DNA of 43,667 bases, from the NCBI GenBank assembly GCA_001801085.1, contig MGWR01000025.1, forward strand, positions 1-43,667, given 5' to 3'. The stretch is from Gallionellales bacterium GWA2_60_142 (GTDB lineage: Bacteria; Pseudomonadota; Gammaproteobacteria; Burkholderiales; Gallionellaceae). Of this stretch, positions 35,470 through 42,421 are shown in pieces (the stretch's first letter is position 1; each line of letters opens with the position of its first letter). A program made the position numbers and the translations under genes. The notes below the pieces were generated by a model. That model made no database searches. It was not told the DNA's origin and was given only the letters and a program-made list of their open reading frames with translations.

Positions 35470-35561
35470 GCGGCATGATGCTGCCTTGGGCAAACTTATC
35501 GAAAGGTAAGGACGCAATGCCACGGGGCTAATGGATTTCCGATGCTAGCCGGGCTGCCGGT
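35470..35561 (+). promoter_or_regulatory. Cyclic-di-GMP class I riboswitch (GEMM-I)
   Basis: The conserved core is present in order: GGGCAAAC (35488-35495), a stem CTTAT/GTAAG closed by CGAAAG (GAAA tetraloop, 35500-35505), GGACGCAA.GCC (35510-35521), GGGGCTAA (35524-35531), and TAGCCGGGCTGCCGG (35546-35560). P1 can form from CGGCA (35471-35475) with TGCCG (35555-35559). The GTTCAC/GTGAAC hairpin (35560-35579) and the ATCCG/CGGAT hairpin beyond are likely expression-platform elements. The regulated gene is the fliL-like ORF at 35662. Confidence 0.9.
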
Positions 35562-41824: not shown

Positions 41825-41837
41825 TAAACTTCGCTCC
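41825..41837 (+). promoter_or_regulatory. Probable -10 box of rnpB
   Basis: TAAACT at 41825-41830 lies 7 nt before the rnpB 5' end at 41838. No good -35 box is visible. Two small palindromes precede it: TGGCGAAATCGCCA (41770-41783) and GTGTCAACAC (about 41787-41796). Confidence 0.5.
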
Positions 41838-42325
41838 GAAGCTGGCTAGACAGTCGCCGCGTCCGCAAGGGCGGGGAGGACAACCCGCTCGCGTAAGCGA
41901 GCGGGTTGCGGTGTAGGCTAATTTGCGCAAGCAAGTTATGCCGAAGCCAAAGTGCGGGGGAACCCGGACTTTTCTCTCCGTCTGAGGACGGGGAGGAAAG
42001 TCCGGGCTCCGCAGAGCAGGATGCCGGTTAATGGCCGGACGCCGTGAGGCGATGGAAAGTGCCACAGAAAATATACCGCCGATGGCTCGGTACTGCTGTC
42101 CGCAAGGGGGGCGGCTGGGTACAGGTAAGGTTGAAATGGCGAGGTAAGAGCTCACCGCGCTGGTGGCAACATCAGTGGCAGGGCAAACCCCATCCGGAGC
42201 AAGATCAAATAGGCTGACTATGGCGTGGCTCGCGCCGTCAGCGGGTAGATTGCTTGAGCGTCAGGTAACGAAACGCCTAGAGGAATGACTGTCCACGACA
42301 GAACCCGGCTTATCGGCCAGCTTCA
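41838..42325 (+). ncRNA. rnpB: RNase P RNA (class A) with a 117-nt insertion between P3 and P4
   Basis: The 5' end GAAGCTGGC (41838) pairs with GCCAGCTTC (42316-42324) as P1, and AGACAGTC pairs with GACTGTCC as P2. P3 is complete as CCGC-GT-CC-GCAA-GG-GCGG (41857-41875). The conserved regions GGAGGAAAGTCCGGGCTCC (from 41992), GGTAAGAGCTCACCGCG, GGAGCAAGATCAAATAGG and ACAGAACCCGGCTTAT are present. Normally P3 leads straight into GGGAGGAAAGTCC. Here CGGGGAGGA (41872-41880) is followed by 108 bases and then by CGGGGAGGA again (41989-41997), joined to AAGTCCGGG. The RNA processes pre-tRNA 5' ends. Confidence 0.93.
41881..41997 (+). other. Structured insertion in rnpB flanked by 9-bp direct repeats
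   Basis: The insert holds a perfect 12-bp hairpin, CAACCCGCTCGC/GCGAGCGGGTTG with a GTAA loop (41881-41908). A second small hairpin, TTGC-GCAA-GCAA, lies at about 41923-41934. The arm CCCGGACTTTTCTCTCCGTC (41963-41982) is complementary over 20 positions (two G-U pairs) to 41987-42006, which includes the conserved P4 strand. No ORF is present. Confidence 0.8.
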
Positions 42326-42350: not shown

Positions 42351-42421
42351 GTGGGAGCGGCTTCAGCCGCGATTACTTTTTTATTCCCCACGCGGCTTAT
42401 CGCGGCTGAAGCCGCTCCTAC
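42351..42421. repeat. REP pair GTGGGAGCGGCTTCAGCCGCG after rnpB
   Basis: The arm at 42351-42373 and its inverse at 42399-42421 share 22 of 23 bases. Each arm contains the inner palindrome CGCGGCTGAAGCCGC. A single copy occurs at 26038-26062. The right arm overlaps the ogt stop codon. Confidence 0.92.

Follow-up and report, generated by a model that had tools for sequence, protein, structure and literature searches.

The window analysed here is a stretch of 43,667 nt from what is apparently an iron-oxidising Gallionella, and it carries on its forward strand a gene for RNase P RNA (rnpB, 41838-42325). The gene matches the Rfam family RF00010 at 274.7 bits over the whole model, positions 1-367 (gathering cut-off 100). 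The strands of P1, P2 and P4 and the conserved regions of class A RNase P RNA are all present, and the 5' strand of P1 (41838-41847) pairs, as read from the sequence, with 42315-42324. The Rfam alignment starts at 41960, whereas the 5' strand of P1, by sequence, begins at 41838, because the model takes as P3 a second copy of this helix that lies inside an insert; RF00010 thus sets the 5' end of the gene in the wrong place. RNase P RNA is an essential molecule found almost universally, and the junction J3/4 is among its least variable places. A sequence-only reading of the window had claimed that rnpB is interrupted there by 117 bases, bracketed by a 9-bp direct repeat, and this held up on inspection: 117 extra bases (41881-41997) are flanked by two copies of CGGGGAGGA, at 41872-41880 and 41989-41997, with a spacing of 108 bases. 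P1, P2 and one P3 stand 5' of the insert. The features on which the argument depends are the following.

41825..41830, + strand: TAAACT, likely -10 box of rnpB (candidate; TAAACT or TAGACT stands 5' of P1 in many relatives, by eye, which would fit a promoter role)
41838..42325, + strand: rnpB, class A RNase P RNA with insert (RF00010 match; P1 pairing)
41858..41879, + strand: upstream P3 and first GGGGAGG, the interrupted J3/4 (comparison with 65 rnpB genes of the genus)
41880..41948, + strand: element E, 69 nt (family copies and their ends)
41881..41908, + strand: left hairpin of E (h1)
41909..41948, + strand: core hairpin of E, with GNA/GNA internal loop
41949..41972, + strand: hairpin h3, a P4-like strand AAAGTGCGGG and its inverted partner (sequence, folding)
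41963..41982, + strand: anti-P4 strand, which can pair with 41987-42006 (J3/4 and P4 5' strand; sequence, folding)
41974..41995, + strand: second P3 (P3'), contiguous with J3/4-P4, the P3 of the Rfam model (Rfam alignment, comparison)
41994..42010, + strand: intact J3/4 and P4 5' strand (CR-I; Rfam alignment, sequence)
42298..42312, + strand: P4 3' strand region (CR-V; RF00010 alignment, sequence)

Elsewhere in the window we observed a transposase-like gene (Y1_Tnp, PF01797; 25288-25620, + strand) within an open frame of 258 amino acids, with no E core adjoining, and a c-di-GMP-I riboswitch (35479-35561, + strand; 69.3 bits). Directly 3' of rnpB lies an inverted repeat, GGAGCGGCTTCAGCCGCG / CGCGGCTGAAGCCGCTCC (42353-42418); a second CGCGGCTGAAGCCGCTCC at about 26041 is perhaps part of another dispersed palindrome.

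The insert is strongly structured, with a folding energy of -73.2 kcal/mol for its 117 bases against a mean of -40.8 for shuffled sequences (z = -8.7; none of 200 shuffles as good). It consists of three parts, namely the element E, the hairpin h3 and a second P3 with J3/4 (41974-41997). E occupies the GG^AAAG bond of J3/4 and reads ACAAC-hairpin-GTTG, followed by the core hairpin CGGTGTAGGCT...ATGCCGAAGCC, in which the two halves pair on either side of a symmetric GNA/GNA internal loop; its left hairpin is the perfect 12-bp, GTAA-capped hairpin (41881-41908) that had been recognized from the sequence. The h3 strand AAAGTGCGGG resembles AAAGTCCGGG of P4, and 41959-41982 is an 88% inverted copy of J3/4-P4 (41987-42010). 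P3' continues straight into GGGGAGGAAAGTCC. The duplication of P3 and J3/4 is clearest in two relatives (G072 and G166; G000 denotes the source genome, and other G and L numbers denote the genomes and loci compared). In G072, P3' (CCCCGCATGTCACGGCGGGGAGG) is still similar to the first P3 (CCGCGCATGTAAATGCGGGGAGG), and likewise in G166, so that the flanking repeat belongs to the duplicated P3 and J3/4. The sequence-only reading had missed this duplication, the inverted copy of J3/4-P4 and the presence of a dispersed repeat within the insert. The sequence-only reading had attributed the 9-bp repeat to target duplication by the inserted element, which has to be abandoned: the ends of 22 two-hairpin copies place the borders of E at G^ACAAC...GCC^A. 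The second CGGGGAGGA lies 40 bases past the right end of E, and is therefore part of the duplicated P3 and J3/4. The same reading had placed the insert in the catalytic core, which is right for the point of insertion, but a second, intact copy of the junction lies downstream.

E belongs to a family of dispersed repeats with the core CGGYGNAGRCTNA-hairpin-TNAYGYCGNARCCA. The exact core occurs in 35 of 76 genomes of the genus (taken as Gallionella), against one of 76 for the backwards control. In named genomes a loose pattern matches at least 118 loci; of the 118 among the matches listed, 45 have the stricter core, and the other 73 fit nothing but the loose pattern, possibly by chance. Among the matches listed, the strict core is found in Ferriphaselus, Methylophilus, Methylotenera, Hydrogenophilus, Rhizobacter and Propionivibrio, and in one record titled only Gammaproteobacteria; the hosts of the family are Gallionella and other, mostly betaproteobacterial, genomes. 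We compared 116 distinct copies from all fetched loci, and the core halves pair around the GNA/GNA loop: the inner R-Y position is G-C in 108 and A-T in 8, with none mixed, the outer R-Y is paired in 107 and A-C in the other 9, and the Y-R next to the loop is paired in 107, 33 of them as U-G, and C-A in 9. The arms of E are partly complementary on average (5.2 of 8 positions, versus 4.6 for shuffled arms). Of the 22 two-hairpin copies, 21 are preceded by G and all 22 are followed by A, counts that do not represent 22 independent events because several copies are orthologous; at most one base of direct repeat is found at the ends.

Several copies of E lie within longer duplicated stretches, at the starts of radC, murG and nuoD and in P3 of rnpB. 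E stands at gene starts in L055, L057, L069, L212, L213 and L228, where the Pfam families are RadC, Glyco_transf_28 (a gene that we take, by its start, to be MurG), Complex1_49kDa, GDP_Man_Dehyd/Epimerase, Homoserine_dh and Mur_ligase, and in several loci the gene start is repeated on both sides of E. The duplicated start in L057 and L069 yields a short upstream ORF that overlaps the ATG of the next. Rfam searches over E at six loci (E <= 1) returned no family above cut-off except RNase P itself, so that E is a repeat family without an Rfam 15 family above cut-off in the loci tested; a weak match to ar9 in L236 (354-496; 31 bits, cut-off 45, E-value 0.06) overlaps the left hairpin of E (E at 468-527). 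Y1 transposase genes are present in 63 of the 76 genomes, and the core was found in the flanks of none of the 30 Y1 loci fetched, a fraction of the Y1 matches that exist; a partnership of the REP-RAYT kind between E and Y1/RAYT is therefore unsupported. A long, gene-bearing form of E was not found in 1.36 Mb of DNA fetched from the genomes, a biased sample of them, which holds three pairs of half-cores set 114, 133 and 505 bases apart. The searches of Y1 loci and half-core pairs thus yielded no mobilising enzyme. Judging from the dispersal of its copies, E is probably a mobile hairpin element, small and non-autonomous, and, since several copies lie in duplicated target stretches, its spread may be coupled to local duplication. 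The two origins that had been offered for the insert, a mobile sequence or a lineage-specific extra domain, apply together, a probably mobile repeat forming an extra domain, without the 9-bp duplication attached to the former.

A complete rnpB gene, with both ends, was obtained from 65 of the 76 genomes; it is incomplete in G004, G033 and G096, and there was no rnpB match in G014, G024, G066, G067, G073, G081, G083 and G095. Homologous inserts are present in six of the 65 (G000, G019, G072, G087, G089 and G092), with pairwise identities of 71-92%, whereas in the remaining 59 P3 runs into GAGGAAAGTCC. The insert thus sits where CR-I normally continues unbroken, as had been claimed, and is not an ordinary P3 extension common to all relatives. 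In G009 the J3/4 site is empty at the same locus, with flanks 86.6% and 87.8% identical. Other variation was also seen among these genes: a different extra P3 hairpin (GAATTC...GAATTC) in G011, G015 and G085 (L031, L040 and L277), a common long form of P12 with the end ATTGAGAAGGGATCAGG in L019, L021, L028, L029, L030, L271 and L279, and, in G080 (L263), an rnpB very unlike that of the genus, with an end branch of 3.89, possibly from a contaminant contig.

The six inserts share their structure. In the model, which was drawn from G000, one of the six sequences scored, 92.9% of the cells are paired versus 31-45% in slid versions, an excess that is in part expected because of that choice. Moreover, both partners have changed in 10 of 50 pairs (4.9 on average in shuffles, of which 1 in 500 reached 10), three of the ten in P3, two each in h2, h3 and P3', and one in a loop pair. 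The number of further pair types is weakly above shuffles (reached by 29 of 500), and h1, which is imperfect in most other insert-bearing species, has no pair changed on both sides. Because the insert recurs in six of the 65 genes with its helices kept through paired changes, it is real and not an accident of assembly. In G019, one of the six, the upstream P3 has lost its 3' half, and the first GGGGAGGA and half of h1 are also gone, but P3'-J3/4 is kept, which makes the upstream P3 the dispensable copy.

A second site within rnpB is occupied by a longer member of the E family, in J11/12 just 3' of ACAGAAAA, in six other genes of the genus:

G002, L038
G009, L039
G010, L036
G015, L040
G020, L037
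G093, L288

None of the 65 genes has both the J3/4 and the J11/12 insert. The long loop of the J11/12 insert in G009 is, by eye, complementary to the left flank. G020 also contains, upstream of an otherwise complete gene, a 5' piece of rnpB with a clean insertion of E, comprising a likely promoter, P1-P2-P3-GGGGAGG, E and then AAAGTCCGGGCTCCGCAG; in G025 a remnant of E and h3 lies upstream of rnpB. A plausible path to the form in G000 would be fusion of a G020-like 5' fragment with the gene behind it.

In a wider sample, the exact pattern of E at J3/4 matched in four of 399 genomes drawn from the order (G000, G089, G166 and G208; backwards control 1), a sample with only seven genomes of the genus and a pattern that misses variants such as G087. 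The match in G208 is not RNase P by Rfam. G166, which belongs to another family, carries E at precisely this bond of rnpB, followed by h3 and a long P3' (Rfam 207.9 bits; the named record L150 has the same sequence), and in its congener G122 the bond is empty. Either the J3/4 bond has therefore been hit at least twice, or E has moved between lineages. The J11/12 pattern was found in one of the 399 genomes (G009). With a looser pattern, 13 of 369 genomes of the class matched, rnpB being the locus only in G000, and the backwards control also matched often; at the other 12, the loci are not RNase P by Rfam (one of the two matches in G535 fell outside this check). One such chance match in another family, L337 (G582), contains a HEARO RNA at 2111-2334 (165.7 bits).

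The origin of the insert is a separate question from its function. A single old insertion followed by many losses, or transfer of the E-bearing segment, could replace repeated insertion at one bond, and we regard this as a serious possibility, though not the one we favour. The six inserts of the genus are homologous and yet scattered on the rnpB tree (64 of the 65 genes, with G001 left out and the long-branch outlier G080 included): the J3/4 carriers are not one clade and require three changes, which on this weak tree suggests that inheritance was not simple. The J11/12 carriers, on the same weak tree, are likewise not one clade (three changes). Against a single origin or transfer stand the carrier in another family with an empty congener, and the E, P3 and h3 of G166, which by eye are unlike the genus versions.

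How the RNA might function with this insert depends on the second copy. Insertion of E alone at J3/4 would be expected to kill the ribozyme. Because P3 and J3/4 are duplicated, and P3'-J3/4-P4 is contiguous, the RNA can have an uninterrupted catalytic junction, and one can place the extra domain between P2 and P3', a reading that G019 supports. We therefore consider it likely, judging from sequence comparison, that E entered J3/4, that a duplicated P3-J3/4 rescued the gene by providing an unbroken P3'-J3/4-P4 downstream, and that the transcript folds as a class A RNase P RNA in which several extra hairpins, retained as a domain, separate P2 from the working P3; the upstream P3 is presumably a relic. 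RNase P seems to stay functional through the second copy of the disrupted stretch, and the insert most likely stays in the RNA, tolerated as an additional domain.

Folding of the whole RNA without constraints gives a different picture, with J3/4-P4 in a 20-bp hairpin with 41963-41982 and P4 sequestered. P2 and P4 form a pseudoknot, and the folding program cannot predict both together. Keeping the 5' strand of P4 free costs 11.2-13.1 kcal/mol locally in five of the six species and 1.4 in G019. Formation of P4 would repay part of the larger cost, and h3 would be favoured during transcription, because its 5' strand is made first.

Cleavage of the insert in the RNA is an unlikely alternative to its retention. 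RNase III-type cleavage at the long hairpins, as in the intervening sequences of rRNA, would leave an RNase P RNA in two pieces joined through P1 and P2, or a trimmed one. The near-perfect hairpin of 20-24 bp at 41959-42010 and the 12-bp h1 could serve as substrates, and P1 and P2 would hold both ends together. However, h1 is not perfect in other species, and cleavage of the long anti-P4 hairpin would damage P4 itself.

We consider it improbable, too, that the competing pairings act as a switch, in which the anti-P4 strand pairs either with the 5' strand of h3, leaving P4 free (on), or with J3/4-P4 (off), and so regulates the level or timing of RNase P. The strength of the alternative pairing in five of the six species would fit such a role, as would the base that faces the C of P4, which is G in all six although its partner in h3 is mismatched in four. 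Such complementarity follows, however, from the inverted duplication, with no need for selection; the pairing is nearly lost in G019, and G166 has, by eye, a short version only. It would be a long shot to combine the two ideas, such that a mobile hairpin repeatedly enters one bond of a ribozyme core and the inverted copy that the rescue left behind becomes an anti-P4 switch, producing a bistable and possibly regulated RNA.

That rnpB of G000 is a decaying pseudogene with the working gene elsewhere is very improbable: the assembly is 80.5% complete and G020 does have an E-bearing 5' rnpB fragment beside an otherwise complete gene, but all eight motifs checked are intact in the six species (the downstream conserved regions had been correctly described as present), the tip branches of the six genes are not unusually long (0 to 0.049; median of all rows 0.015), and a single RF00010 match was found in each of the six genomes, G087 and G089 being 99% complete. 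Indeed, the search for a second rnpB that had been proposed gave only the one match in G000 (33 of 33 candidates scored in this draft genome), and all 12 genomes with an insert at either site have one match each, 10 of them at a completeness of at least 90%.

Our preferred reading, a disrupted junction compensated by its own duplicate, thus concerns one repeat family that occupies J3/4 in members of two bacterial families and, in other species of the genus, J11/12. It suggests that a structured RNA can survive invasion through a duplicated copy of the helix that was hit, or through an insert that folds on itself, and it provides natural variants for probing which junctions the RNase P ribozyme can spare. 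Literature searches on rnpB repeats and insertions and on Gallionella repeats, with subscription journals mostly outside their range, gave no description of this case among the papers listed. Divergent RNase P RNAs of CPR bacteria are treated in PMC8172020.

Several known systems resemble parts of what we observe. The palindromic elements of Rickettsia (RPE), like E, are short palindromes that insert into genes, where they are tolerated; for E, the open frame of L213 passes through the element into homoserine dehydrogenase, near the N-terminus. RPE differ in sequence and hosts, and the RNA target of E is the J3/4 bond of rnpB, with P3 and J3/4 duplicated. The REP/BIME sequences and the miniature elements derived from IS200/IS605 also have hairpins near both ends and no short end duplication, but their GTAG tag is not fixed in E: 31 of 116 copies have T as the variable base of the left GNA. 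A precedent for repeats within rnpB is the STRR of cyanobacteria, reportedly described by Vioque in 1997 (as cited in PMC2858038). STRR are short tandem repeats that lie in P12, whereas E is a two-hairpin element at J3/4 with a longer relative at J11/12. Finally, P3 of class A RNase P RNA is a place of length variation, as it is here; in this case, unlike an ordinary variable P3, the added sequence is a dispersed repeat, and there are two copies of P3.
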